Shown: one piece after another, positions 6,664-64,000 of the stretch
How positions within the stretch are numbered: position 1 is the stretch's first letter
Layout: the number at the start of each line of letters is the position of its first letter
Assembly: GCA_021775805.1 (NCBI GenBank)
Contig: JAJFHD010000015.1
Coordinates: forward strand, 62,001 to 126,000
Source of the DNA: Alphaproteobacteria bacterium
Lineage (GTDB): Bacteria; Pseudomonadota; Alphaproteobacteria; Rhizobiales; JAJFHC01
Direction: 5' to 3'
Length of the DNA: 64,000 bases
Notes under the pieces: model-generated
Databases searched by the model: none
What the model was told of the DNA's origin: nothing
What the model saw: the letters and a program-made list of their open reading frames with translations, nothing else
Program-made: the position numbers and the translations under genes

Positions 6664-7800
6664 TTATTGCGGATTTTTTTTCAGCCAGCGCTGGAAGTCC
6701 TGAAACAGGTTCTCCGCCTGTTGCGGGGTAATGGTGCCGGCGGCCGGGACAACGTTGACTTCCGTGAAGAACCGTTGAAACGCAACACGAAGGGCCGGTT
6801 CCGGACAATCATGACCGCTTCCGATTGCGGTTGAGGCGAGGACGGCGTCAACGGCCTGAACCCGGTTCCATCCGGGAATGTGAGCCGCAAGGTTCACTTC
6901 CGACCATTTGGAGTGGTACGGCTTTTCCTGAAGTTTCGGAAATTTCTTGAAAAAGGCATCGATGAACTTGGCCACATTCTGATAGCGGCTGGTGTCGGTC
7001 TTCCAGTTGAAGGCCATCAGCGCATTGCCGACGGCAAGGGTGGAGACGCTCTTGCCTTTGGGAATCAGGTTGGGGTAGTCCTCGCTGGTCAAGGTCGACG
7101 GCAGATAGGTGTTCTGGACCGCGTCGCTCAGCGGCACCGGGATAAAGCGCAACTTGTCCGCAGGCCTGATCCGCTTGAACAGGTTGAGCGGTTTGCCTTC
7201 CACATAGATCATGGCGTCGATCTGGCCTGCCTTGAGCATTTCCAGTGCAGTGTCTGGCTCCTGGAAGATAGGCTTGATCGGTATGTTCAGGCTGTTGAGA
7301 AGCAGGGACGAGGTCACATAACTGCCATCGGTCTGCGGCCCGATGCTGACTTTTCGGCCTGCCAGCTGTTTCAGCGACTTGAACGGCGCCCGGGCGAGGA
7401 TGTGGACCTCCTCGTTGAACAGTTTCGCAATGTAGCGCACGCGCCGCTCAATGCCGCCGTGCACGCGTTGCTTTTTCATGTAGTCCAGAACATCGGTCTG
7501 GACGATGGCGAGATCGACGCCCTTGAGATAGAGCATGTCGGCCACATTCTGCAGCGAGCCTTCGCCCATCAGCGAGAGCAGGCGCAAGCCCTCCGTACCG
7601 TCCACCAGCGACGACAGTTCCGACGCCATCTGAAACGATGTCGAGTGCATGCCTCCGGAGACAATTCTGACAACGCCTGCATTGGCCTGCTTTCTCAGTT
7701 TCCAGGTCGACGATTGCCCGCCAGTCGATTGCGCTGTGGCTTGATGAATTGGTGTGATCAGACAGGCAAGCAAAACTGCCGCCACAGCAAGATACTTCAT
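6664..7800 (-). CDS. TAXI-family TRAP transporter solute-binding protein (orphan)
   Basis: A 378-residue exported protein. The start at 7800 (MKYLAVAAVLLACLITP) is chosen because it gives a clean signal peptide and is preceded by GAGGG at good spacing; a longer frame upstream has neither. The mature part shows TAXI-family features: VRIVSGGMHSTSFQMASELS, VDLAIVQTDVLDYMK, GRKVSIGPQTDGSYVTS and IDAMIYVEGKP. TAXI proteins normally feed a fused DctQM permease, but none is adjacent. The next gene in the same direction is a TctC-like binding protein, so two unrelated types of binding protein are paired without a permease. Confidence 0.88.
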   Translation of the reverse strand: MKYLAVAAVLLACLITPIHQATAQSTGGQSSTWKLRKQANAGVVRIVSGGMHSTSFQMASELSSLVDGTEGLRLLSLMGEGSLQNVADMLYLKGVDLAIVQTDVLDYMKKQRVHGGIERRVRYIAKLFNEEVHILARAPFKSLKQLAGRKVSIGPQTDGSYVTSSLLLNSLNIPIKPIFQEPDTALEMLKAGQIDAMIYVEGKPLNLFKRIRPADKLRFIPVPLSDAVQNTYLPSTLTSEDYPNLIPKGKSVSTLAVGNALMAFNWKTDTSRYQNVAKFIDAFFKKFPKLQEKPYHSKWSEVNLAAHIPGWNRVQAVDAVLASTAIGSGHDCPEPALRVAFQRFFTEVNVVPAAGTITPQQAENLFQDFQRWLKKNPQ

Positions 7801-8037
7801 GACATGTTTCCCTCTACGACACTGATCGGGATGAACGTTGACGGCTTCAACCAACGCGCATGCAAACCGATCGCTTGAATGCGTGCGGAGACTCCGGATG
7901 TTTGTGTGCGTGCAGCCCGCCGGAATTCCCACCGCTATTTGAGATCAAACTGATGTGGCGTATTTTGGGCTGGTTCGCGGCAGTTATGTGGGCAAACTTT
8001 GGCGGGACCGCCGACGGCCCCTCCGGGCACCGTGGGT

Positions 8038-8397
8038 TTACGGCTTGTTTCTCACCTCGACGTGCTGCAGCCGGCCCTGGTGGACAATGACATATTCCAG
8101 CCCGGAAAAGTCGACGTCGTCCCCGTCGGCGGTGGTGCCCGTCATGACAAAGTCGAACAACACGATACCCGGCCGGACCTCCTCGGCTGAGTTGATGTGC
8201 CAGTGGAGAGACCTGAAACCGGCATGGAACGTCCGCTGCATGGCAATGATGTTTTCGGCCCCCAGATGAAGACCGGTGTTGAGGGAGCTGTAGGTGCTCG
8301 ACGGTGTGAACAGCCGTTCGATCTCGTCGAGGCGTCCCTGGTTGGAGAGGTCGAAGTAGTGTTGGGCGAGATCAAGGGCGTCGCGCATGGTGTCCAT
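8038..8397 (-). CDS. SnoaL/NTF2-like small protein
   Basis: The product is about 119 residues from MDTMRDALDLAQHYFDLSNQ. A helix followed by strands (LHWHINSAEEVRPGIVLFDF and LEYVIVHQGRLQHVEVRN) gives the cone-like fold of the SnoaL/NTF2 superfamily, whose members bind small ligands or act as isomerases or hydrolases. The open frame continues upstream across the tRNA gene, but that part is not coding. An alternative ATG at 8388 is also possible. It is a single gene between tRNA-Val and the TAXI gene, with unknown function. Confidence 0.75.
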   Translation of the reverse strand: MDTMRDALDLAQHYFDLSNQGRLDEIERLFTPSSTYSSLNTGLHLGAENIIAMQRTFHAGFRSLHWHINSAEEVRPGIVLFDFVMTGTTADGDDVDFSGLEYVIVHQGRLQHVEVRNKP

Positions 8398-8523
8398 CCG
8401 TTTAGCTGGATCAGGAATTGTGCACATTACACTGCACGATTCCCGTGCACGATGCAGCATGCCAGCGCTGCGTCGCAGACCCGGAACCGCGCCACATGCC
8501 AAGAATGTCTTTCGGTAAGGAAA

Positions 8524-8598
8524 TGGTGGGCGATACTGGGATTGAACCAGTGACCTCTCCGGTGTGAACGGAACGCTCTCCCGCTGAGCTAATCGCCC
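8524..8598 (-). tRNA. tRNA-Val (anticodon CAC)
   Basis: The minus strand folds into a full cloverleaf: acceptor GGGCGAT pairs with ATCGCCC, D-arm TAGCTCAGCGGGAGAGC, anticodon loop TTCACAC (anticodon CAC, reading GUG), and T-arm CTGGTTCAATCCCAG. The 3' CCA is encoded. Length is 75 bases including CCA. Confidence 0.95.
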
Positions 8599-8747
8599 TG
8601 ACCAAGGGTATTGCCGCGCCAACAATGCGGGTGCGGTGCGGACGGCGCCGATATAATGGGCCAAATCCGGTGAAGTCAAGCACTGTGGCAGGAAGGCCGC
8701 TGTTTCTTCTTGCCGGTTGACATCTAATTGGGCACAAGCGTCGTCCC

Positions 8748-9953
8748 ATGATCGCCCCGTCCCCGCTTCCCGCCAAAACCGCCTGGCCACGCCTTATCGT
8801 GCTGTTTTCTGCCGGCGTCGCGGTCGCATTTCAGATCGGCAAGGTGCCGGGTGCCTTGCCGATGCTGTCGGTGGAGTTCGGGTTGAGCCTGTTCCTGGCA
8901 GGCTGGGTGGTGTCGGTGTTTAATGCCATCTCGGCAGGCGGCGGTGCGCTTTTCGGGGCGACGGCCGACCGTTTTGGACACCGACGTGTGGCGCTTTCAG
9001 GCATGACACTGTGCGCAGCATCCGGTGTGTTCGGTGCATATGCCCCGTCGGCGGAGTGGCTGCTGGTGAGCCGCGCCCTGGAAGGCGTCGGGTTTCTGCT
9101 GACCGTGGTTTCCATCCCACCGCTGATCCTGGCACAGACCGCCGTGCGCGACCGCGCCAAGGTGATGGGACTGTGGGGCGCCTACATGCCCGTTGGCATG
9201 GCGACTCTGCTGTTTGCATCGGGTCCTTTGCTTGAGATCATGGATTGGCGCGGCCTGTGGCTGTTGACGTCCGTGCTGATTGCAGCAATTGCCCTGTTTC
9301 TGGGCGTGATCGTGCCGCGCGGTTCGGTCGCCAAGAACCCGGACCAGCGCTTGTCGATGGACGACATGCGCCGGCTTTTAACAACGCCTGGACCGGTGCT
9401 TCTGGCCGTCACGTTCTCGTCCTATGCTGCCCAGTTCCTGGCCGTCATGTCGTTTCTGCCCCTGCTTCTGGTGGAACGCGCAGGCATTGACACAGCCGAT
9501 GCCGCCATGCTCGGCGCCGTCGCCGTGGCCGCCAATGCCATCGGCTGTTTCCTGTCGGGATTCCTGCTCGACAGGGGGCTTACGCGTTCGCAGGTGATCG
9601 TCGCCACGAGCCTTGTCATGGCGGTGTGCGGCGTTGTTACATTTCTGGATGTGTTCGCATTTCCCGTACGTTATGCCAGCGCCCTGCTGCTGTCGGCGGC
9701 CGGTGGCCTCATTCCCGGAACCCTGTTTGCCGGCACGCCGGTACACGCCCCGAGCGAACGTCAGGTCTCCAGCGTCAATGGCATGCTTTTGCAAGGGGCA
9801 GCCCTCGGTCTGTTGGTCGGGCCCCCCGCCGTGGGATTCATTGTGACAGCAGCCGGTACCTGGCAGGCCGCGCCGCTGTTTACGTTGCCTGCAGCCGTTC
9901 TGACGATCCTGTTTGCCGTGATGCTCGGGAGGCTGGAACGACTGTCGCGTTAG
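8748..9953 (+). CDS. MFS transporter
   Basis: A 401-residue integral membrane protein with about twelve hydrophobic segments in two six-helix halves. The loop between helices 2 and 3 reads GGALFGATADRFGHRRVALSG, the MFS motif A form (G-x3-D-R-x-G-x-R-R). A central hydrophilic loop (about residues 188-208) separates the halves. It probably exports or imports a small organic molecule, which cannot be specified. It reads divergently from tRNA-Val and converges on gph, so it is likely monocistronic. Confidence 0.9.
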   Translation: MIAPSPLPAKTAWPRLIVLFSAGVAVAFQIGKVPGALPMLSVEFGLSLFLAGWVVSVFNAISAGGGALFGATADRFGHRRVALSGMTLCAASGVFGAYAPSAEWLLVSRALEGVGFLLTVVSIPPLILAQTAVRDRAKVMGLWGAYMPVGMATLLFASGPLLEIMDWRGLWLLTSVLIAAIALFLGVIVPRGSVAKNPDQRLSMDDMRRLLTTPGPVLLAVTFSSYAAQFLAVMSFLPLLLVERAGIDTADAAMLGAVAVAANAIGCFLSGFLLDRGLTRSQVIVATSLVMAVCGVVTFLDVFAFPVRYASALLLSAAGGLIPGTLFAGTPVHAPSERQVSSVNGMLLQGAALGLLVGPPAVGFIVTAAGTWQAAPLFTLPAAVLTILFAVMLGRLERLSR

Positions 9954-9965
9954 ACAGACCGGTTT

Positions 9966-10643
9966 TCAGCCGAGCTGCACGAAGTCTCCGATGTTGTCCA
10001 CAAGGTCGTCGAAATGATCGATCTGCCGGTCGGGCCGGTAGGTTGCGACCGGTTCCTCGGTATACCCGAAGGTCACCGCGATCACCGGCACGTTCGCCGC
10101 CTGTGCCGCCACGATATCTGCCTGGCTGTCGCCAACCATTACCGTGGCCGCCGGTTCGCCACCGATACGGCGCATGGTCTCGAGTACATGTTCGGGATCG
10201 GGCTTGCGCACGGCAAGGGTGTCGCCGCCGACGATCGAAGAAAAGTAGGCGCCCATGTCGAGGGTATCGAGAAGCAACCGCGACATGGATTCAGGCTTGT
10301 TGGTGCACACTCCCATGGCGCAGCCGGATGCCCGCAAGGTTTTCAGCGCTGTCATGACACCGGGGAAGGGCCGGCTGGTAACGGCAATGTTAGCGCCGTA
10401 ATACTCCAGGAACTCCGGATACATCTCTTCGATTTCGTCTGTCGTCGCAGGCGTACCGGTTGCCGTCATCGCCTTTGTCATGAGCGCCTTCGCGCCCTGG
10501 CCGACCATGTGGCGTACATCCTCAAGATCAAGCCGCGAACGCCCGCGCCGGACCAGCAGAACGTTCATGGAAGCGGCAAGATCGGGCGCGGTGTCGACCA
10601 GGGTGCCGTCGAGGTCGAACAGGATCGCTGGTGTCAGGGGCAT
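9966..10643 (-). CDS. gph: Phosphoglycolate phosphatase (HAD family)
   Basis: A 225-residue HAD hydrolase with all four motifs: DLDGTLVDTAPDL (nucleophile D10, acid D12), CTNKP (motif II), VRKPDPE (motif III lysine) and MVGDSQADIVAA (motif IV aspartates). The alpha-helical cap after motif I and the overall length match Gph, which removes phosphate from 2-phosphoglycolate formed in DNA repair or oxygenase side reactions. Other HAD phosphatases (PPase, beta-PGM) are less likely given the LVDTAPDLAAS segment. Single gene, divergent from the secreted protein at 10797. Confidence 0.88.
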   Translation of the reverse strand: MPLTPAILFDLDGTLVDTAPDLAASMNVLLVRRGRSRLDLEDVRHMVGQGAKALMTKAMTATGTPATTDEIEEMYPEFLEYYGANIAVTSRPFPGVMTALKTLRASGCAMGVCTNKPESMSRLLLDTLDMGAYFSSIVGGDTLAVRKPDPEHVLETMRRIGGEPAATVMVGDSQADIVAAQAANVPVIAVTFGYTEEPVATYRPDRQIDHFDDLVDNIGDFVQLG

Positions 10644-10796
10644 TGAGATTTTACTTTAAGTGAAAGGTGAGAGGAAAAACCGGCCACCGATTGCCGAAGA
10701 CCAGAATCGATACTTTAAGAGCAGCCCGATTGTGATTCAATTTCAAAACCTTACGACCATGAGATAAACTGCGCTATATTCCCGGAGGCGTGTTCG

Positions 10797-11267
10797 TTGC
10801 GTTGGACAATTCCATTGATTGCGGCCCTTGTTGTCACCTATGCGCAGGCCCTTGCCGGTGCCGGCCGTACGCATCCACCGGCCGGCTTCTTTGCAGGAAG
10901 TTACATTGTTGTCGGCAAGGCGGCGGATAATGGCGGGGTTTATGACGGCACAGCGACTATTGACGTCGTCGGCGAGGAGTTTCGGCTTTACAAGCGGTTT
11001 GGCGGCCTGGTCACAACCTGGCCGGGCCGCTTTGAAGTGCCCATGCCGCCGGGAGAGGGCACCGTTCTGCGTTTCCGCAACGTGAAATCGAAGATCGTGT
11101 CGACCTGCCTCTGGACGGTGGATTTAGACAATTATCCAAGATTAAGTTGCCTGATTCCGATACGCGAAAGGGATGGGCCTGCCACAGTGCCCGGCCTCGA
11201 GGTCTTCTATCCGGTGTCGTCATGGCCGGGGACAGCAAAGGAAATCTTCACGTTCCCCAAACCATAG
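10797..11267 (+). CDS. Secreted hypothetical protein
   Basis: A 156-residue protein starting at TTG, supported by GGAGG at 10784-10788 with 8-base spacing. Residues 1-21 (MRWTIPLIAALVVTYAQALAG) form a signal peptide. The mature part begins with a GSYIVVGKAADNGGVYDGTATI segment of the kind seen in lipocalin-like or fibronectin-binding-like beta-rich secreted proteins, but no named family is certain. Two cysteines near residues 107 and 122 could form a disulfide. It stands alone in a divergent intergenic context, and its function is unknown. Confidence 0.65.
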   Translation: MRWTIPLIAALVVTYAQALAGAGRTHPPAGFFAGSYIVVGKAADNGGVYDGTATIDVVGEEFRLYKRFGGLVTTWPGRFEVPMPPGEGTVLRFRNVKSKIVSTCLWTVDLDNYPRLSCLIPIRERDGPATVPGLEVFYPVSSWPGTAKEIFTFPKP

Positions 11268-11338
11268 GACAAAGCCGTGAAACCAATGCGGGTTTCAATC
11301 GCCGTTGACGGGTGCAGCGTGAGACAATAGACAGACGA

Positions 11339-11929
11339 ATGCTTTCCTTTGCCCTTGCGGTCTTCTTTCTCCTGATCACCCCCGGTCCCGGCGTCCTCTC
11401 GATAGCCGGCGTCGGCTCGGGCTTTGGCTATGCGGCCGGAATCCGCTATCTGATCGGCTTGTTTTTCGGGACCAACCTGGTCGCCCTGGCGGTTGTCTCC
11501 GGCCTCGCCGCAATCGTCTTTTCGCTGCCGCAGGTGCGCACCGTGCTGCTCGTGGCCTCCGGAGCCTATCTGCTCTACCTGGCCTTCAGGATCGCGTTCT
11601 CCGGCTCCAGGATCGCCTTCATCCGGAAGCAGAGCGAACCGGGTTTCTGGGGAGGTGTGGCGCTTCAGGCGATCAACCCGAAGGCCTACGCCGTCAACAC
11701 GGCCCTTTTCACCGGGTTTGCCTTCATGCCCTCGGCATTGGCTGTCGAAACCGCCGTCAAATTCCTGATCATCAATGCGATCTGGATCCCGATCCATCTG
11801 TTGTGGCTGTGGGCTGGCGTCACCGTGCGGCGGCTGGAACTGGGCGCGCGCGTACAGTTTGCCATCAACATCGTCATGGCGCTCTCCATGCTGGCCGTGG
11901 TCGTCCTCGCAGCCCTGGCGCCGCATTGA
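11339..11929 (+). CDS. LysE family amino-acid exporter (RhtB-like)
   Basis: A 196-residue membrane protein with about six helices. It begins MLSFALAVFFLLITPGPGVLS, where TPGPG is the N-terminal LysE/RhtB signature, followed by GxGFGYAAGIRYLIGLFFG and a later LQAINPKAY (the N-P-K motif). These exporters discharge amino acids such as lysine, threonine or homoserine. A GTG at 11312 in the same frame is less likely because it would extend beyond the normal family start. An NTF2-like gene follows closely, then an EamA permease, suggesting a transport-related operon. Confidence 0.87.
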   Translation: MLSFALAVFFLLITPGPGVLSIAGVGSGFGYAAGIRYLIGLFFGTNLVALAVVSGLAAIVFSLPQVRTVLLVASGAYLLYLAFRIAFSGSRIAFIRKQSEPGFWGGVALQAINPKAYAVNTALFTGFAFMPSALAVETAVKFLIINAIWIPIHLLWLWAGVTVRRLELGARVQFAINIVMALSMLAVVVLAALAPH

Positions 11930-11957
11930 CATAGCGCGGGAGCGGAAGGAGCGCGAT

Positions 11958-12362
11958 ATGCATGACACTAACGCCGAAAGAACTGTTCAAGGCTACCTGG
12001 CAGCGATGGAAGCACGCGATCTGGATAAGGCAAAATCCATGCTCGCACCGGGATTCACCATGGTGTTTCCCGGAGGTCACGAGTTCCGGGCGCCCGAGGA
12101 GCTGGTTGCCTGGTCGACATCGCGGTACAGAAGCGTTGCCAAGACGTATGACGCTTTTGAGTCCCTTCCAACCGGCTCTGAAAGCGACGATCAAGCGATT
12201 GTCTATTGCCGTGGCACGCTCTGTGGCCAGTGGCCGGACGGTACCGCCTTTTCAGGAATTCGGTTCATCGACCGTTTCACGGTATCTGGGGGCAAGATCA
12301 CAACCCAGATGGTCTGGAACGACCTGGCGGAAGTCGTCCGTGCCCAACGTGCTGAGACCTAA
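11958..12362 (+). CDS. SnoaL/NTF2-like protein
   Basis: A 134-residue protein starting MHDTNAERTVQGYLAAMEAR, preceded by GGAAGGAG. The N-terminal helix pair, the central APGFTMVFPGGHEFRAPEEL and the C-terminal strands IRFIDRFTVSGGKITTQMVW fit the SnoaL-like/NTF2 fold. The stop TAA overlaps the next ATG by one base (12362), so it is translationally coupled to the EamA permease gene. A ligand-binding or small-molecule isomerase role is possible, but nothing specific can be read. Confidence 0.8.
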   Translation: MHDTNAERTVQGYLAAMEARDLDKAKSMLAPGFTMVFPGGHEFRAPEELVAWSTSRYRSVAKTYDAFESLPTGSESDDQAIVYCRGTLCGQWPDGTAFSGIRFIDRFTVSGGKITTQMVWNDLAEVVRAQRAET

Positions 12363-13270
12363 TGCTCGAGCTCTGGATTCCAATAACCATCGCAGCGGCC
12401 TTCTTTCAGAACCTGCGTTCGGCCCTGCAAAAGCACATCAAGGGCAGATTATCGACTGTGGGCGCGGCCTACGCCCGTTTTTTCTATGCCTGGCCCCTAG
12501 CAGTCGCCTATGCCGCCGGGCTCAACCTCTTGGGCGGGTATCCCCTGCCGTCGCCAAACCTGACTTTCCTCGCCTATTGCACTTTGGGAGGCATGACCCA
12601 GATCCTGTTCACCGTGCTCTTGTTATGGATGTTTTCCTTCAAGAGCTTTGCCGTCGGCACAACATTTTCCAAGCTCGAAGTCATTATGGTGGCACTCCTG
12701 GGAGCCGTGCTTTTGGGCGACGGGCTGTCCTATCCGGCGATGCTCGCGATCGTCATCAGCGCCTTCGGCGTGGTTGCCCTTTCGATCGGGCAATCGAAGC
12801 TCACCTGGGCTTCCCTGATGTCTGGTCTGGCGGAAAAGACCACATTGATCGGCCTGGCGTCGGCCGCGTTCCTCGGCGCGTCGTCGGTTCTTTACAGAGG
12901 CGCGTTGCTGGCTTTGGGCGACGACAATTTTGTGATGGCGGCGGCTTACGCGTTGAGCATCAGCCTGATCATCCAGACCGTTATCATGGGCACATATATC
13001 GTTTGGCGTGAGCCGGGTGAGTTCACCCGGGTGATCCGGAACTGGCGCTGGGCCGGTGCCGTCGGCGTCGCCGGCATGATGGCGTCGGTGGCCTGGTTCA
13101 CCGCTTTCACGCTGCAGAATGCAGCCTACGTCCGGGCCTTGGGCCAGATCGAGCTTGTTTTCACCTTCCTGGCAGCGACCCTCATTTTCCGGGAAAAGGT
13201 CGAGCGCGCCGAGGTCATCGGTATCATCCTCATTGCCGGTGCAATTCTCCTTCTGGTTTTGGCTGCATGA
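12362..13270 (+). CDS. EamA/DMT superfamily permease
   Basis: A 302-residue protein with ten predicted helices in two EamA repeats. The first ends VVALSIGQSKL, the second ends VIGIILIAGAILLLVLAA. The polar helix-9 region AYVRALGQIELVFTFLAATLIFREK carries the family pattern (G-x-E-x3-T). Members export metabolites such as amino acids or nucleotides. Its start overlaps the stop of the NTF2-like gene by one base, so the two are coupled. LysE upstream and EamA here suggest an efflux operon. Confidence 0.88.
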   Translation: MLELWIPITIAAAFFQNLRSALQKHIKGRLSTVGAAYARFFYAWPLAVAYAAGLNLLGGYPLPSPNLTFLAYCTLGGMTQILFTVLLLWMFSFKSFAVGTTFSKLEVIMVALLGAVLLGDGLSYPAMLAIVISAFGVVALSIGQSKLTWASLMSGLAEKTTLIGLASAAFLGASSVLYRGALLALGDDNFVMAAAYALSISLIIQTVIMGTYIVWREPGEFTRVIRNWRWAGAVGVAGMMASVAWFTAFTLQNAAYVRALGQIELVFTFLAATLIFREKVERAEVIGIILIAGAILLLVLAA

Positions 13271-13361: not shown

Positions 13362-15227
13362 GTGAGGTTCGCTGTTGGCATATTGACCATCGGGTTGCTT
13401 CTGCTCGGGCATGGCCTGGCTCAGGCGGAAACCCGGGTCGCCCTGGTCATCGGCAATTCGAACTACCAGAACGTCTCGAGCCTGCCCAACCCGGCCAACG
13501 ATGCCGCCGACATGACGGCCATGCTCAAGCGCATGGGCTTCAAGGTGCGCGAGGCGCGCGATCTGGGGGTCAACGCCATGCGTGCGACCCTGGCTCAGTT
13601 CAGCGACGATACCGTAGGCGCCGATGTTGCCGTGGTGTTCTATGCCGGGCACGGCATGGAGGTCGACAAGCAGAACTATCTGATCCCGGTGGATGCCAGA
13701 CTGGCCACCGACCGGCGCGTCCGGTTCGAAGCCATTCATCTCGATGACGTAACCGGCGCCATGGAAGGCGTGAAGGGCTTGTCGATCGTCCTGCTCGATG
13801 CCTGCCGCAACAATCCGTTCATAAGGTCCATGAAAAAGACGTCCGCGTCGCGCAGCGTCGGCAGGGGACTGGCGCGGGTCGAACCGCAGGCGGGATCCCT
13901 GATTGGTTTTGCCGCCCAGGCCGGCACGATCGCCGATGACGGCAAGGGCCGCAACAGTCCCTACACAAAGGCCCTGCTTTCGCATCTGCCCGAACCGGGT
14001 GTCGATCTGCGGCTGACATTCGCTAAGGTCCGCGACACGGTCATGAAACTCACCGGCAGGGCGCAGCAGCCGTTCACCTACAGTTCGCTTCCGGGCAGAA
14101 ACATTTACCTCACAACGCCGGAAAAACCGCAGGTCAAGGCGCCGGCGGCGTCACCGGCCTTGGCAGCTGACAAGGAAACCGTTTTCTGGAGCACCATCAA
14201 GAACAGCAAGAACCCCAGCATGTTCAACGAGTACCTGAAACAGTTTCCGAACGGAACGTTTGCCGGGATTGCGCGTGTGAGGCTTGTGGAGCTGCAAAAG
14301 CAAGCGCTGGTCGGAGCCGCGCCGCTCGTCAAGCCCGCGCCCAGAGCGGATGCAGGCGCGATTCGGGTGGGCAGTACATTCCGCGATTGCACGGGATGTC
14401 CGGAGATGGTCGTGATTCCGCCCGGTTCCTTCGTCATGGGGTCTCCGGCGGGCGAGAAGGGGCGCGCAAAGGATGAAGGCCCGGCGCACCGGGTTTCGAT
14501 TCCTGAGGCATTTGCGGTTGGCAAATTTGAAGTCACCGTTGAAGAGTTTACCACCTTCGCAAAGGAGGCGGGGCTTCTGACACTCAGCATTTACAACAAG
14601 GAGAAGGAATGCTGGGTCTATGACAAGAAAGCCAAGTGGAAAAAGAGGCAGGGTCGATACTGGCAAAAACCGGGCTTCCCTCAAGGCAGGTCGCATCCGG
14701 TTGTGTGCGTCAGCTGGAACGATGCGGCGGCCTACGTCGATTGGCTGAACGGCAAGGTTTCGGGCACACCCTACCGGCTGCTGTCCGAGGCCGAGTGGGA
14801 ATATGCCGCCCGCGGTGGTTCAACCGAACCCTATGGCTTCCCGGCGGCAGGGGCACAGGTTTGCCGCTTCGCCAATGGCGCGGACCGGACCGTCAAAACC
14901 ACGTTTGCCTGGGCCAATCGCCAATGTTCGGACGATATCGCCTTTACGGCGCCCGTCGGCTCGTTTCCGCCCAACAGGTTCGGCCTGCACGACATGATCG
15001 GCAATGTCTGGGAGTGGGTCGCGGATTGCTGGCACGATTCCTATCGCAATGCTCCCGCCGACGGCAGCGCCTGGACCCGCGGCAAGCAGTGCGGCTACAA
15101 GGTTTTGCGCGGTGCATCCTGGAACATGAGCATTGCTGAATTCCGATCCGCCAACCGTAGCAAGCTGGCAAACCAGGCCCGGGCGATTGCCAACGGGTTC
15201 CGGGTTGCCAGGACTCTCTCGCCGTGA
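13362..15227 (+). CDS. Caspase-like peptidase fused to a formylglycine-generating-enzyme (SUMF1) domain
   Basis: The frame opens upstream, but the GTG at 13362 begins a signal peptide (residues 1-22, LTIGLLLLGHGLAQA), giving a 621-residue product. Residues 24-250 are a C14 caspase fold: the family start TRVALVIGNSNYQN, catalytic H97 in VVFYAGHGME and C148 in LSIVLLDACRNNPF. A linker (about 250-340) holds a KQFPNGTFAGIARVRLVELQ segment common between these modules. Residues about 345-620 are an FGE/SUMF1 domain (CPEMVVIPPGSFVMGSP, VTVEEFTTFAKEAG, EWEYAARGG, GNVWEWVADC, GFRVART). The protein is probably periplasmic. The FGE part likely binds ligands or partners rather than activating sulfatases, since no sulfatase gene is nearby. 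Confidence 0.9.
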   Translation: MRFAVGILTIGLLLLGHGLAQAETRVALVIGNSNYQNVSSLPNPANDAADMTAMLKRMGFKVREARDLGVNAMRATLAQFSDDTVGADVAVVFYAGHGMEVDKQNYLIPVDARLATDRRVRFEAIHLDDVTGAMEGVKGLSIVLLDACRNNPFIRSMKKTSASRSVGRGLARVEPQAGSLIGFAAQAGTIADDGKGRNSPYTKALLSHLPEPGVDLRLTFAKVRDTVMKLTGRAQQPFTYSSLPGRNIYLTTPEKPQVKAPAASPALAADKETVFWSTIKNSKNPSMFNEYLKQFPNGTFAGIARVRLVELQKQALVGAAPLVKPAPRADAGAIRVGSTFRDCTGCPEMVVIPPGSFVMGSPAGEKGRAKDEGPAHRVSIPEAFAVGKFEVTVEEFTTFAKEAGLLTLSIYNKEKECWVYDKKAKWKKRQGRYWQKPGFPQGRSHPVVCVSWNDAAAYVDWLNGKVSGTPYRLLSEAEWEYAARGGSTEPYGFPAAGAQVCRFANGADRTVKTTFAWANRQCSDDIAFTAPVGSFPPNRFGLHDMIGNVWEWVADCWHDSYRNAPADGSAWTRGKQCGYKVLRGASWNMSIAEFRSANRSKLANQARAIANGFRVARTLSP

Positions 15228-15296
15228 ATGACGCACACTTCTGGCGCTCCCATCCTTTTGATACAGAAAATCCGGATATTCCTTTACAGTGACAGG

Positions 15297-15941
15297 ATGA
15301 ACGTCATTCGACTCTCCGCTGTGTTGATTTGTCTGTCCTGCCTCGGCCTGCCGGTTCAGGCCGGAACATGGAAGGCGGCGGGTCTGGTGTTCAGCGACGA
15401 GTTGGGAGGCTTCAGGATAGACTCCGTTTCTGGTGCCGGCACACTTGAAGATCCGGTTGTCATCCGTCAGCGTGTCGCGGGAACCGAACCGACCGTCCTG
15501 GTCGTCCGTCTCGACCCTGATGGCGACCAGATCGGGCGGGCATTTACCGAGCGGAACTATCTCAAGATTTCCATAGTCGCGGAGATCGTCAATGAGAGCC
15601 GCAGAGCCTGGGCGGGTTTCGATTTCGAACTGCAGGAAATCCTCGGCCAGCCAAGCGTGTACCGGGATGGCTTGTCATTCGATCAGGTTCGGAGTTTCGG
15701 CAAGAGGAAATTTGTCTCCGACCGCTTCAATCTGTTTACAGATCTTACCGAACCCTATGACCGCGTCAGGTTCGAACAGGGTCATGTCGATCCCGGTGAA
15801 ATGGCGTCATTCACATATTTCGTGACTGACGTCACCCCGATCAACGAGTTCTACGTGGTTCAGGAACCGAAACTGCTGACAGCGCAGCGTGACCCTGACG
15901 GGGCGCTGATCCGGTATGCGTTTCATCGCGGCCACCCTTGA
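15297..15941 (+). CDS. Secreted hypothetical protein downstream of the caspase-FGE gene
   Basis: A 214-residue protein starting MNVIRLSAVLICLSCLGLPV, a clear signal peptide cleaved near residue 23. The ATG is preceded by AGG a few bases upstream. An upstream in-frame ATG at 15228 would overlap the stop region and bury the signal peptide, so it is rejected. The mature protein is rich in beta-strand segments (RIDSVSGAGTLEDPVVIRQR) and has no recognised family. It lies about 70 bases after the caspase-FGE gene in the same direction and could be its partner or substrate, which is inference. Confidence 0.7.
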   Translation: MNVIRLSAVLICLSCLGLPVQAGTWKAAGLVFSDELGGFRIDSVSGAGTLEDPVVIRQRVAGTEPTVLVVRLDPDGDQIGRAFTERNYLKISIVAEIVNESRRAWAGFDFELQEILGQPSVYRDGLSFDQVRSFGKRKFVSDRFNLFTDLTEPYDRVRFEQGHVDPGEMASFTYFVTDVTPINEFYVVQEPKLLTAQRDPDGALIRYAFHRGHP

Positions 15942-54179: not shown

Positions 54180-54746
54180 ATGAGACTTTTTATTGCCGCA
54201 ATGGCGTTTCTCGTGTCCGCGGGCATGGCGCAGGCGGAAAAGCGCGTCGCCCTGGTCATCGGAAACGCGAACTACAAGCTGATCTCGCCTTTGGGCAACC
54301 CCCGGAACGATGCTGAACTGATGGCGTCGACGCTCAAGAAAGTCGGTTTCGAAGTAGTGGAAGCAACTGATGTGAATCGGCGCCAGATGTGGCGGGCGGT
54401 CAAGAAGTTCGGCAAGGAACTCCAGAGTGCCGGCCGTGAGGCCGTGGGTCTGTTCTACTATGCCGGACATGGAATTCAGGCGCAGGGCAACAATCACCTG
54501 ATCCCTTTGAACGCACGGATTGAAGATGAAGCCGACATCGATGTGGAAGCTATCAGCGCTGCCAATGTTCTGCGCCAGATGGAAATCGCGGGTAACGGTT
54601 TAAACCTCGTCGTCCTCGATGCCTGCCGCAACAATCCCCTTAAGAGTTCGACGCGCTCGAATGTCCGCGGTCTTGCCCGCGTCAAGGCGGCGTCGGGCGC
54701 AGTTGGTCAGAAGCCGCGATCCAGATTCTGGAAGCGGTCAAGCTGA
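54180..54746 (+). CDS. Caspase-like peptidase, truncated after the catalytic core
   Basis: A 188-residue protein from MRLFIAAMAFLVSAGMAQAE (signal peptide; start after GGGGGA). The C14 domain shows KRVALVIGNANYKL, H97 in LFYYAGHGIQAQ and C149 in LNLVVLDACRNNPLK, so both catalytic residues are present. After RGLARVKAASG (residue 173) the homology ends and a short unrelated tail QKPRSRFWKRSS leads to a stop. The expected continuation (substrate-specificity region and downstream modules) is absent. Compare the full-length paralogue at 13362. It may be inactive or a regulatory fragment. Confidence 0.8.
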   Translation: MRLFIAAMAFLVSAGMAQAEKRVALVIGNANYKLISPLGNPRNDAELMASTLKKVGFEVVEATDVNRRQMWRAVKKFGKELQSAGREAVGLFYYAGHGIQAQGNNHLIPLNARIEDEADIDVEAISAANVLRQMEIAGNGLNLVVLDACRNNPLKSSTRSNVRGLARVKAASGAVGQKPRSRFWKRSS

Positions 54747-55341
54747 AACACGATCCGGCCGTCACAGCGTTGAGCGCGACCGGGACCCTGCGTGATCCAT
54801 CCTTCCTTAGAAGCCTGCAGCAGAAGCTCAGACACTTGGACACTACGGGGGAAGCATCGATGGCAGGTGGGGAGCAAACAGCCGCGATGCGGTGCTCGCA
54901 CACGCTGGCCGTTCGCGCCGGAAAGAAACAGTGAAACGGAAGTCTCCGCAGAAGGTTTCCAAACCCGCTGCCAGAAAACCAGCCCAGAAGTAAAAGCAGT
55001 CATCGCGCAAGGTCAATTGCCGCCGCATCACGTCCACGGCCAAATGCCTCGCGACGCCACAATGCGTATACGCCGGTGAAGGGTTTTGCCACAACGTTAA
55101 CTAGGTCGCGACCTTGCCAATGCCATCGATTGATGCCGCACAGCGGTTTCTCCGGGCAACTCCCGACTTCTAGCGTCCCTATGTGAGCCACGGCGCGAGA
55201 ATTGGGTGTCCGGAACGTCATTTGTTGAGGTTGCGACAATGGCAGCGCCGATCTCAAGCAAGACGTTCCCAATCGGGATTCTGGACAAATCTTAGGACGT
55301 GCGTTTATTCTCTTGCTGAAATGGAAATCGGAAAACTGGTT
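54747..55341. other. Gene-poor stretch with fragmentary reading frames
   Basis: No confident gene. Around 54717-54934 an open frame reads AIQILEAVKLKHDPAVTALS and beyond, offset from the truncated caspase gene, perhaps the 3' end of another lost gene. A Lys/Pro/Ala-rich frame (KSPQKVSKPAARKPAQK) ends near 54993. The last 20 bases lead into the nitrile hydratase alpha gene. This looks like rearranged DNA at an island edge. Confidence 0.5.
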
Positions 55342-55989
55342 ATGGCTTCATACGATCCGGAAAACGCCAACGTGGTTCACGAACACGTTCATTCGCACAT
55401 CCCGTCTGATCCTGCATTGCGGGTGAAAGCGATGGAAAGCCTACTTGTTGAAAAAGGGCTTCTGACTTCTGAGGCAGTGGATGTCTGGGTCGAAACCTAC
55501 AGCGAAAAGGTGGGCCCGAAGGTGGGCGCGGGTATCGTTGCGCGGGCATGGTGCGATCCACAATTCAAAGCGCGTTTACTTGAGGACGGCACAGCGGCCA
55601 TCAAAGAACTCCAGATTGAAGGCTGGTTTCTGGCGCACTTGAAGGTCGTCGAAAACACGGACGCGGTGCACAATCTCGTCGTTTGTACACTTTGCTCTTG
55701 TTACCCGCACGGCGTGCTGGGGCTGCAGCCGTCGTGGTACAAGAAAGAGGCGTATCGTTCGCGTGCGGTGCGCGATCCGCGTTTGGTTCTCTCGGAGTTT
55801 GGCGTGGACTTGCCGGAAGGTGTGCGGGTCAAGGTTTGGGACAGCACCGCCGAGGTGCGGTACCTAGTCTTGCCTCAACGCCCCGCGAATACCGAAGATT
55901 GGGACGAAGTTGCCTTAGCCGATATTGTCACGCGCAACAGTATGATCGGAACAGATCGCGATCTGTCGACCGTTACGAGCGAAGGCTGA
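55342..55989 (+). CDS. Nitrile hydratase alpha subunit, cobalt-type
   Basis: A 215-residue subunit. The metal motif VCTLCSCYP (C115, C118, S119, C120) has Thr and Tyr at the positions that mark the cobalt type. Iron enzymes normally have Ser and Thr. Other features are YSEKVGPKVGAGIVARAWCD, VENTDAVHNLVV and the C-terminal DSTAEVRYLVLPQRP. The enzyme hydrates nitriles to amides and needs a beta subunit plus an accessory protein for cobalt insertion. ATG at 55342 or 55321 are both possible starts. It is followed by beta after 3 bases. Confidence 0.93.
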   Translation: MASYDPENANVVHEHVHSHIPSDPALRVKAMESLLVEKGLLTSEAVDVWVETYSEKVGPKVGAGIVARAWCDPQFKARLLEDGTAAIKELQIEGWFLAHLKVVENTDAVHNLVVCTLCSCYPHGVLGLQPSWYKKEAYRSRAVRDPRLVLSEFGVDLPEGVRVKVWDSTAEVRYLVLPQRPANTEDWDEVALADIVTRNSMIGTDRDLSTVTSEG

Positions 55990-55992
55990 TTC

Positions 55993-56655
55993 ATGGACGG
56001 AATTCACGACGTCGGCGGTCGCCAAGGCTTTGGTCCGATTGAGATCACAGATGCAGACCCGCCCTTTCCGACAGAGTGGGAGGCGCGCGCATTCGGTATC
56101 ACAAAGTCTGTGACTGCGGCTTCGGACTACAGTGTCGACAAGTTTCGATATACCCGCGAACAATTGCCGCCTCTGGAATATCTGACGGCGCCCTATTTCG
56201 AACAGTGGATGCGCTGCACGATGGCAATGCTGGTGGGCAGCGGCCTTGTGACGGCAGAGGAATTGGCCAACGGACTCAGCGACGGAACCATTCCGTCCGA
56301 TGTCGGACCGCAAAAGACGGCAGAAGATGCACACGCTGCAACTGCTGCGACAGCCAGATTTGATGGCCCTTACGATGGCACGCCCGGGTTCGCATCCGGT
56401 GATAGCGTAACAGTGAGCCTGGATGCTCCAAGTGGGCACACACGTCTGCCGCAATATGTGCGGGGCCGGGTCGGGCAAGTCCTCGCCTATCGTGGGTCGC
56501 ATGGCGTCCCGGAAGATAATGTGAAGAACGTCAAAACCTTTGAACCGCTTTATTCGGTTACTTTTGGGCTTGGCGATCTCTTCGAAGAGCATCAGGGATC
56601 CGCAGACCAGATCAATGTCGAGATTTGGGAGCGGTTCCTTGCCCCTTCAATGTGA
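55993..56655 (+). CDS. Nitrile hydratase beta subunit
   Basis: A 220-residue subunit beginning MDGIHDVGGRQGFGPIEITD, the canonical NHase-beta start. The C-terminal SH3-like domain has TRLPQYVRGRVGQVLAYRGS, PEDNVKNVKTFEPLYSVTFG and INVEIWERFLAPS. It contributes Arg residues near the cobalt centre of the alpha subunit in known enzymes. It lies 3 bases after alpha and overlaps the accessory gene. Confidence 0.95.
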   Translation: MDGIHDVGGRQGFGPIEITDADPPFPTEWEARAFGITKSVTAASDYSVDKFRYTREQLPPLEYLTAPYFEQWMRCTMAMLVGSGLVTAEELANGLSDGTIPSDVGPQKTAEDAHAATAATARFDGPYDGTPGFASGDSVTVSLDAPSGHTRLPQYVRGRVGQVLAYRGSHGVPEDNVKNVKTFEPLYSVTFGLGDLFEEHQGSADQINVEIWERFLAPSM

Positions 56656-56962
56656 TGTGCCCGAGGGTTTTGATGCGCCATGGCAAGCAGAAGCTTATGG
56701 GATAAGCCAAGCGTTGATCGAGGCAGGCCATGTTTCGGCTGAGAAATGGGCCACTACAATGAACCGGGCGCTGCGCCGAAAGCTCCATGATGAAGGACTT
56801 CCGGACAACGCCGACACATATTCGGTCGCGGTTATCGAGGCGCTCAGCGAAGTGACCTCGGCAAATGGCATCGTATCGGCAAAAGAACTCGAGCAGCGCT
56901 CAGAGGCTTGGCGCTCCGCCTACAAGCGAACGCCGCATGGCAAGCCTGTGAAGCTCGAGTAG
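56615..56962 (+). CDS. Nitrile hydratase accessory (activator) protein
   Basis: A protein of about 115 residues. The core LPLQCDVPEGFDAPWQAEAY followed by GISQALIEAG resembles nitrile-hydratase accessory proteins (P14K/NhlE type), which help load cobalt into the alpha subunit. The C-terminal ELEQRSEAWRSAYKRTPHGK has the family's final W-x3-Y-x2-T-P-H-G-x-P motif. The start could be ATG 56615 (overlapping beta by 41 bases), TTG 56639 or GTG 56657; the first keeps the conserved L-P motif. Third gene of the operon. Confidence 0.85.
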   Translation: MSRFGSGSLPLQCDVPEGFDAPWQAEAYGISQALIEAGHVSAEKWATTMNRALRRKLHDEGLPDNADTYSVAVIEALSEVTSANGIVSAKELEQRSEAWRSAYKRTPHGKPVKLE

Positions 56963-62029: not shown

Positions 62030-64000
62030 TTATCTGCACGCCGCGGCCTGATTCGTACGTGCCTGGAGCATATCGACAGCTGTCTCGTCACCTGCCTTGG
62101 CGGCCTTGGCTAGCCAGTTGATACCGTTTCGACATTGGGTGGATCCCAGCAGCCACTCGCTTCCGTCGAGAAGTTTCTCACCAAACTTTCTCATGGCAAG
62201 AACGAACCCGCCTTCTGCCGCTCGTCGGACAAGGTCGTCTACTTCATTGGTGTTTCGTTTGGTAAGTCGGTACATCGTGGCCAATTGATACATCGCAACA
62301 GGATTTTGCTTTTCCTTGATCGCGAGATTGTATGCCGCTGCTGCAACTTTTCGATCTCTGTCAACCAAGGGAATGCCGTCGACCGATCCATCTCGGTATG
62401 CAAGCCCTTTCAGTGTCAAGGCTGCGGAATAAAGTTCGCTTGCCGCAAGTTCCAGTTCATGTAGGGCAACGTCATTGTCCTTGCCTATATGCGCTCGTGC
62501 CATTTGGTAGCGGTATCGGGTATCCTGAGTATCCGCGAAGGCCTTCCTGCACGATCGAATGGCAATATTGCGTTCAACGTCAGATAAGGATTTCAGATCG
62601 GCATTGGTCACGGCAATATGCTTTGCGTTCGGATCAACATTGTCGCCAGCTAGAGCATCGCATCTCGTGGCCGCCGCGAAGGTAAGGCCTACCCTGGCAA
62701 TTTTCTCCTGTTCGACGAGTTGCAATTCCTTGTCATCGACTACAGATGGAACACCGATTTTCGTAAGAAGCTCCTTGTCCCAAATTTTCCGTTGCTCATC
62801 CAACCAAATCGGCAAGCGCTCAAGTTCAGTAGGTGCGCCATAATGGTCCACCAGACTCATAGGAGTTTCTGGTGGTTCGTTCAGTCTTGCTACTTCTGCC
62901 TTGTGTTGAGAAACGAGTTGAGCATTCCCCTGCTTGAACTCGTCAATCACTTCCTTGTGTCCTTCTATCTCCTTCTCATACCATTCTGTCAGCTGAGACA
63001 GGAATCCTGGGGCATCATATTTGCTCACTAATTCCCTCGGCGTGATTGGCATCACGTCGTTTCGAATAGCCGCCATAGTGGCGCCCAATCCTACTATGCA
63101 GAAAACAACTGCTGCCATCCAGGCCCTCGCAGTTCGCGGTACAACGAAGGCAATGAAGTCAGAGAGTGGTTTTTCCTTTTTGGAATCGGATAGTTCCTTC
63201 TTCAACTCTTCGATCTGAGAATTCTTCTCTTCGATCTGAGAATTCTTCGCCTTTAAATTGCGTTCGTGGTCGGCCTTCGATTTTTCAATCTCTCTGTTCA
63301 GTCGATCTTCAAATTCCTCATTCAGTTTGGCGGCAAGGTCTGATTTGGACCTATCGACTTTCTCTTTGACCGCACTATCGAAACCTTTGGTGAGTTGCGC
63401 CAGGTCCTTTTCCAGTTCCGACTTGTGTGATCTCTCTGCACTGAGTTTCTCCTCAAAGTTTCGCTCAAGTTCGGCAACAGAGGACTTCAGATCCGTCAGC
63501 TCTTTTCGCTCGGGAGCGAATGCCAGCTCCTGCCATTGCAAGACGGCTTCCGACAAAAGTAATGCGCCTGCGGAGAAACTGTGCAGTATGTCAAACCGTG
63601 CCATGTCATCGGCGTTTTCAATCGAAATGTTGTTTTCGAATTGATTGAGGAAACCACCCCAGAGTTCTCTGGTCCCCTCGTCGAGCAGTTCGTGTCGTGC
63701 AGTCTCGTCAATTGTTGATCGGACGTCGGCGATCTGTCGTGGCCATCTGTTCTTTCCGATGACCGGATAACCCTCGCTGGGTGTATCGGGCCACAGGCAA
63801 GGATTCTGTTTACTTCCCTCAAGAGCTCTTTCAAGATACCGATGAATGTCCCTGATCGTGATGTCTTCCTTGGCGGAATTGCTGTTTGTTGCGTCTCCCG
63901 TCACCAATCCTTTGCAGAGATGATAGGTAAACACGCCCATTTCCAAATTTGGATCTTCTTTGGCGACCTCTGCTGGCAAGGCGGCTGTCAGCACAGTAAG
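62030..64000 (-). CDS. Caspase-related protein with coiled coil, membrane segment and Sel1-like repeats (partial)
   Basis: The frame is open to the window edge, so the N-terminus is missing. The visible 656 residues start in the tail of a C14 caspase fold (VLTAALPAEVAKEDPN, MGVFTYHLCKGLVTGDA, ITIRDIHRYLERAL, then QNPCLW), whose catalytic His and Cys would lie outside. A long charged coiled coil follows (about 165-270 of the visible part), including a duplicated KNSQIEE heptad. A membrane helix (AWMAAVVFCIVGLGATMAAI) and Sel1/TPR-like repeats (AAYNLAIKEKQNPVAMYQLA, INWLAKAAKAGDETAVDML) complete it. It is probably an inner-membrane signalling or effector protein. Confidence 0.78.
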   Translation of the reverse strand, partial: LTVLTAALPAEVAKEDPNLEMGVFTYHLCKGLVTGDATNSNSAKEDITIRDIHRYLERALEGSKQNPCLWPDTPSEGYPVIGKNRWPRQIADVRSTIDETARHELLDEGTRELWGGFLNQFENNISIENADDMARFDILHSFSAGALLLSEAVLQWQELAFAPERKELTDLKSSVAELERNFEEKLSAERSHKSELEKDLAQLTKGFDSAVKEKVDRSKSDLAAKLNEEFEDRLNREIEKSKADHERNLKAKNSQIEEKNSQIEELKKELSDSKKEKPLSDFIAFVVPRTARAWMAAVVFCIVGLGATMAAIRNDVMPITPRELVSKYDAPGFLSQLTEWYEKEIEGHKEVIDEFKQGNAQLVSQHKAEVARLNEPPETPMSLVDHYGAPTELERLPIWLDEQRKIWDKELLTKIGVPSVVDDKELQLVEQEKIARVGLTFAAATRCDALAGDNVDPNAKHIAVTNADLKSLSDVERNIAIRSCRKAFADTQDTRYRYQMARAHIGKDNDVALHELELAASELYSAALTLKGLAYRDGSVDGIPLVDRDRKVAAAAYNLAIKEKQNPVAMYQLATMYRLTKRNTNEVDDLVRRAAEGGFVLAMRKFGEKLLDGSEWLLGSTQCRNGINWLAKAAKAGDETAVDMLQARTNQAAACR
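63206..63247. repeat. 21-bp perfect tandem duplication inside the coiled coil
   Basis: Two identical 21-base units (63206-63226 and 63227-63247) encode KNSQIEE twice, one heptad each, on the minus strand. The reading frame is preserved. Confidence 0.9.

Follow-up and report, generated by a model that had tools for sequence, protein, structure and literature searches.

The window, by which we mean the whole stretch of 64,000 nucleotides analysed here, carries on its forward strand two neighbouring genes for proteins with leader sequences. The first (positions 13362..15227), which we call CasFGE, opens with a GTG codon and encodes 621 amino acids in one open frame, predicted to form an exported fusion of a C14 caspase, a linker and a PvdO/FGE-like domain. 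The second, UNK (15297..15941, 214 amino acids), follows on the same strand after an intergenic gap of 69 nucleotides. According to Pfam, the pair is flanked by a gene for an EamA-type transporter upstream and one for a carbonic anhydrase downstream. The source genome (6.6 Mb in 152 contigs) has an estimated contamination of 7.86%, so that foreign sequences may be present among its caspases. Full-length relatives of CasFGE, 42-47% identical, are found on another contig of this genome and in two other genomes, and the fusion is thus unlikely to be an assembly artefact.

CasFGE starts with a Sec-type leader (residues 1-22, 13362..13427), with cleavage predicted between MRFAVGILTIGLLLLGHGLAQA and ET, that is after AQA. 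Export, also called in a first-pass annotation of this DNA, is supported by hydropathy, and the cleavage site was read by eye and not by a trained predictor. The caspase domain (residues 24-244, 13431..14093) matches Pfam Peptidase_C14 with an E value of 1.4e-40 (139.8 bits, cut-off 21.4). His97 (YAGHG) and Cys148 (DACRN) are both intact; among 80 aligned caspases the column of the former is invariant and that of the latter nearly so, which bears out the residue numbers given in that annotation. The best solved relative of this half is the paracaspase MALT1 (E 2.2e-11 over 129 residues). CasFGE differs from MALT1 in being bacterial, in carrying a leader and in lacking the Ig-like domain of paracaspases and a death domain. 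More generally, no Pfam family besides C14 and FGE-sulfatase is found at E<=0.1, with no Ig, death domain or STAND NTPase match. A linker common to many paralogues follows (residues ~272-318, 14175..14315; these are residues 265-311 of our census, shifted by seven because of the earlier start). The C-terminal domain (residues 346-617, 14397..15212) matches Pfam FGE-sulfatase with an E value of 1.3e-61 (208.9 bits, cut-off 23.3) and opens with a CxxC motif (DCTGCPEM). A single-sequence fold model of CasFGE reached a pLDDT of 36.8 and was discarded.

The product of UNK has the leader MNVIRLSAVLICLSCLGLPVQA, followed by GT after the cleavage site, and belongs to no family recognised by Pfam (E<=0.1) or NCBIfam (E<=1); the earlier description of a secreted protein of no recognised family, encoded in the same direction as the caspase, therefore holds. 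Its structural model (pLDDT 84.9) is a beta-sandwich with no PDB match by Foldseek at E<=0.001, and its best VIA Z score, 6.3, is of a size for which the program cautions that the similarity may be fortuitous. On this model, UNK would be a beta-sandwich protein without convincing structural match, which is no proof of a new fold. The unnamed family is well conserved, with 24 invariant columns in 35 sequences (alignment A2: the window and 34 of the 80 UNK loci described below). Its members (window 15297-15941 and L094-L173) display the motifs FSDELGGF and W.GF..ELQE, and many come from Rhizobium and Mesorhizobium records. Overall, relatives lie in records named Hyphomicrobiales/Rhizobiales and in those of neighbouring alphaproteobacterial groups, and no match was obtained by tblastn in plasmid records.

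The first-pass annotation had proposed UNK as a partner or substrate of the caspase, and a protease acting on, or controlled by, an exported neighbour would be consistent with the arrangement of the locus. Both proteins carry leaders and are encoded on the same strand, and a sequence scan of the 69-nucleotide gap flagged nothing resembling a terminator or promoter, such that co-transcription of CasFGE and UNK would be possible. Comparison with other genomes argues strongly against this idea. We detected 249 stretches encoding a UNK relative in genome contigs and kept 80 loci. None of the 80 has either a caspase gene or an FGE-like one within the flanks fetched (up to 8 kb on each side, six loci having less than 8 kb in all), as searched with a caspase HMM and with the FGE-like half, both of which recovered the window as a positive control. 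UNK occurs once in the source genome and has relatives in five of 60 other genomes drawn from the same order, all of them outside its genus and family; nothing similar to CasFGE at E<=1e-8 surrounds them within ~9 kb on each side (3.4 kb on one side in genome G048). In G048 (L025:1499-3904, contig C35), the UNK gene adjoins relatives of three frames that lie at 55183-56962 in the window, some 40 kb from UNK.

The distribution of the two genes across the order leads to the same conclusion. UNK is present in 27 of 397 genomes; full-length CasFGE, for which three candidates were scored in each genome, passes E<=1e-100 in three: the source genome, G078 and G002. At this threshold, both are found together only in the source genome and in G078, where UNK lies on contig C71 and the fusions on C29 and C30. 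Among the genomes with weaker caspase-FGE fusions (G010, G033, G038 and G011), G038 likewise has UNK (C11) and its fusion (C15) on different contigs. Conversely, when six fusion-bearing stretches were compared (the window, C84 and C140 of the same genome, G002:C241, G078:C29 and G078:C30), the fusion itself was the only common item at E<=1e-12, and UNK was absent from all the stretches read except the window. Profiling of both genes thus reveals no conserved linkage, the very outcome that the first-pass annotation had named as speaking against its proposal, and we rejected UNK as a partner: that the two proteins form a protease-substrate or protease-partner pair appears very improbable. Instead, UNK would be an independent exported protein that came to adjoin CasFGE in this genome by chance.

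The fusion of a caspase with an FGE-family domain is of a type known since 2012, and CasFGE is thus not new in this respect. In the parts of the sources that we consulted, FGE-sulfatase accompanies 33 of 671 sequences in a survey of that year, whose authors speculated that such fusions require both proteolysis and formylglycine modification (PMC3501461). Further cases were later reported in archaea (PMC6426788) and in Baltic Sea data (PMC4933709), and domain swapping was suggested for MaOC4 of Microcystis (PMC5756287). As in CasFGE, the C14 domain of these metacaspase or orthocaspase fusions comes first and the FGE-family domain second (PMC3501461, PMC5756287); orthocaspases are distinguished from type I metacaspases by the absence of a p10 domain (PMC6426788). 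Compared with the fusions described in these excerpts, CasFGE appears distinct in having a PvdO-like half without the FGE cysteine pair, together with a leader.

Several lines of evidence concern the nature of this half. Its closest solved structure is PvdO of Pseudomonas (5hha, E 1.9e-61), far ahead of the best human FGE chain (E 2.1e-22). The active-site cysteine pair of FGE, which we take to be Cys336 and Cys341 of the human enzyme, has no counterpart in CasFGE: when the two are aligned, a Met and an Ile of CasFGE stand opposite the cysteines of 1y1e, where both are present, and the corresponding sequence stretch lacks the pair. This stretch is also free of cysteines in 11 other caspase-fused domains, namely those of C84, G002:C241, G002:C120, G033:C3, G038:C15, G011, G078:C29, the broken copy on C140, G010 and two of the three fusions of G078:C30 (the pattern used missed the third). 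The first-pass annotation was thus correct as to the family of the domain, while the formylglycine-generating function suggested by its name did not stand: judged by its sequence, the FGE-like half of CasFGE is not an FGE, and we rejected formylglycine making by this protein on account of the missing pair. More broadly, its absence from 12 fusions speaks against a formylglycine role for this group.

PvdO itself, when aligned, likewise has no cysteines at the FGE site, and shares with CasFGE the CxxC-PEMVV and DCWH motifs in addition to an FGE-family domain. However, PvdO has no caspase domain, and the likeness is bounded in another way: the PvdO model NF051459 (dihydropyoverdine dehydrogenase equivalog) is the best NCBIfam match of CasFGE with 249.1 bits, against a cut-off of 500 bits that CasFGE does not reach. 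According to the accessible part of a study on PvdO, this periplasmic protein is needed for an oxidation step, and yet the purified protein was inactive and contained no detectable cofactor (PMC6206403), so that PvdO-type chemistry may be conceivable for CasFGE. In such a scheme, the C-terminal domain would catalyse the extracytoplasmic oxidation of a peptide or small molecule, with the product, or the enzyme itself, being processed by the caspase half. The structural and NCBIfam matches, as well as the CxxC and DCW motifs that several copies have in common with PvdO, are in its favour. We nevertheless regard it as rather unlikely, given the NCBIfam score, the inactivity of purified PvdO and the presence of non-enzymatic binding modules at the same place in paralogues. 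Moreover, the CxxC pattern, present in the window, C84, C140, G038:C15, G078:C29, three frames of G078:C30 and the free-standing domain of G038:C25, was not found in the copies of G002, G010, G033 and G011.

The other modules joined to related caspases support an alternative role of the C-terminal half. The linker of ~47 residues that follows the caspase domain was matched by an HMM in 59 of 89 proteins and in none of the reversed controls, the HMM having been built from 40 of the proteins on which it was scored. It is present in CasFGE, in C84 and in two proteins of the source genome that carry solute-binding modules, and absent from the FGE fusions of G010, G011 and G038:C15. In one of these two proteins (L068:2153-4609, contig C79, 819 amino acids), leader, caspase and linker are in frame with an ABC-type solute-binding domain (SBP_bac_5) covering nearly the full profile. 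The solute-binding half is 72-78% identical to solute-binding proteins of six other genomes, and the three best-matching loci of these show no caspase or linker alongside, suggesting a recent fusion; among the matches listed (two candidates scored per genome), the row of the source genome is the only one to span both halves. The other protein (L070:1952-3910, contig C141, 653 amino acids) combines leader, caspase and linker with a TRAP solute-binding protein (DctP). On G078:C29, a gene read by eye as encoding a solute-binding protein (L238:6424-8070, minus strand) lies 6 nucleotides after a caspase-FGE fusion and on the same strand; the window's genome has such a protein fused to a caspase.

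Related caspases also differ in their modules when sequences are compared. CasFGE is 57% identical to a G036 caspase devoid of an FGE-like domain, and to G002:C241 it is 31% identical in the caspase half and 51% in the FGE-like half. When 88 caspase domains were placed in a quick tree, the FGE label, carried by eight rows, required seven changes, compared with a mean of 7.8 after shuffling, and at least six changes are forced by starred branches; CasFGE belongs to a set of five caspases with a support of 99*, the other four of which have no FGE-like domain. This tree comes from a short search in which two long branches meet and which does not distinguish gain from loss, and the scatter of the label could come from repeated loss. 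A tree of the FGE-like domains, for which only seven rows were long enough, had no supported branch. On balance, the C-terminal module of CasFGE would be exchangeable and probably ligand-binding.

Binding-protein-like modules are also joined to caspase homologues elsewhere, as PBP_like_2 (presumably a periplasmic-binding-protein-like family) or ANF_receptor; those found here, SBP_bac_5, DctP and the PvdO-like domain, belong to different families. In the sections of the papers available to us, one sequence combining Metacaspase and PBP_like_2 is tabulated (PMC4933709), ANF_receptor is described on cyanobacterial orthocaspases (PMC5756287), and caspase homologues with peptidoglycan-binding domains, or with N-terminal helices resembling leaders, had been noted in 2012. 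No PvdO-like module, missing cysteine pair, or fusion with SBP_bac_5 or DctP was found in these sections. For caspases joined to solute-binding proteins, a literature search gave a single paper, concerning ankyrin repeats, which is weak evidence that such fusions are undescribed.

CasFGE belongs to a large family in its own genome: a C14 search yields 24 hits at E<=1e-3 and, at the stricter threshold of E<=1e-20, still 21. The latter count is the highest among 61 sampled genomes of the order (the next are 19 and 15), 24 of which have no hit at this threshold. A hydrophobic leader was recognised by eye directly before the caspase domain in 21 of the 24 hits; in the others, the leader precedes MORN repeats (C144), none is seen (C47c) or the broken frame cannot be judged (C140). 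We further assembled a census of 88 caspases, including 17 from the source genome, from own-genome hits and, among the matches listed, by similarity to CasFGE, so that it leans towards the CasFGE subfamily. In 80 of the 88, mean hydropathy reaches 2.0 over ten residues among the ~45 that precede the domain, by a rule of our own instead of a trained predictor. The caspase alignment used above (A3) retains 80 of the 88 as well, the others being truncated, too divergent or unusable at the C-terminus (L081, L083:6332, L187, L189, L215, L217, L227 and window 54180).

Diverse modules follow these caspases. A Pfam run on 20 of the 24 own-genome hits (all but C140, C68, C107 and C117, whose frames are interrupted or run off a contig) identified Sel1 with or without a peptidoglycan-binding domain, PvdO/FGE-like, SBP_bac_5, DctP, PAN, DUF4384 or no recognised module. 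The PG_binding_1 matches of C24, C93 and C3b are below the family cut-off, and C30 has a PG_binding_2 match inside the caspase domain. Among 80 census members, counted at E<=0.001 and not at Pfam's own cut-offs, we found PG_binding_1 in 22, Sel1 in 11, FGE in seven and LprI in three. SBP_bac_5, DctP, PAN, SH3_3 and others each occur in single members, and many members have no recognised module. On contig C30 of G078 (L239, ~6737-13172), three caspase-FGE fusions are arranged in tandem with one frame that matches only the FGE-like half.

Some family members are broken or truncated. Stops interrupt the frames of C140, C68 and C107, and the window itself contains a second caspase (54180-54743, plus strand, 188 amino acids), a truncated paralogue that ends soon after the Cys motif. 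CasFGE might accordingly be just one more copy in a gene family that duplicates and decays, with no selected function of its own. We find this improbable, as its frame is open over 621 codons, its dyad is intact and full-length relatives persist on a second contig of the source genome as well as in two further genomes. Two further members were noted: a third caspase, at 63788-64000 of the window and beyond (L078:3034-5889, minus strand, 952 amino acids), with a weak C14 match, a Peptidase_C13 match and no leader seen, and a pseudo-caspase (L073:1198-2850, contig C69) in which the catalytic Cys is replaced by Ser (LDASR) and GHG by GHS.

A role in suicide or anti-phage defence must also be considered, in which the C-type-lectin-fold domain joined to the caspase would sense invasion. 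In the excerpt consulted, C-terminal FGE-like domains are proposed as sensors in conflict systems and retroelements (PMC10907252), and a PADLOC caspase model gives a match with CasFGE, though a weak one (E 1.5e-4). Yet CasFGE differs from these systems by its export leader and by the lack of a STAND NTPase, holding nothing but C14 and FGE-sulfatase, and the genes around it encode an EamA transporter and carbonic anhydrase. The source genome shows no RVT_1 match at E<=0.001, and hence no reverse transcriptase of which CasFGE could be a retroelement target. Both a diversity-generating retroelement, on this last ground, and a defence system, for which all PADLOC matches were weak, were rejected as candidates, and a defence function seems to us unlikely.

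The role we favour, with some but by no means full confidence, is that of an exported and most likely periplasmic caspase-like protease whose activity would be positioned or triggered by the PvdO/FGE-like domain at its C-terminus. The features that lead us to it are those of the protein sequences: the His-Cys dyad, the leader read by eye, the shared linker, the PvdO-like domain without the FGE pair and the variety of modules in paralogues. The leader would export CasFGE, presumably to the periplasm. There, the PvdO-like domain would bind a ligand or a component of the envelope instead of making formylglycine, and this binding would localise proteolysis, or switch it on, outside the cytoplasm. 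A counterpoint is that oxidation could affect the catalytic cysteine of a protease located outside the cytoplasm.

Extended to the whole family, this role suggests a more tentative picture, which we consider possible although less probable than the proposed role of CasFGE itself. The lineage may keep a set of exported-caspase cassettes, in which a constant unit of leader, caspase and linker is combined with exchangeable envelope-facing modules (PvdO-like, ABC-type and TRAP-type solute-binding, peptidoglycan-binding and PAN), each paralogue being placed or switched by a different ligand outside the cytoplasm. For the fusions read here, the missing cysteine pair points to an extracytoplasmic role in binding or in PvdO-type chemistry. 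If the cassette interpretation is true, caspases such as these would serve bacteria as envelope proteases gated by ligands, and not as suicide effectors.
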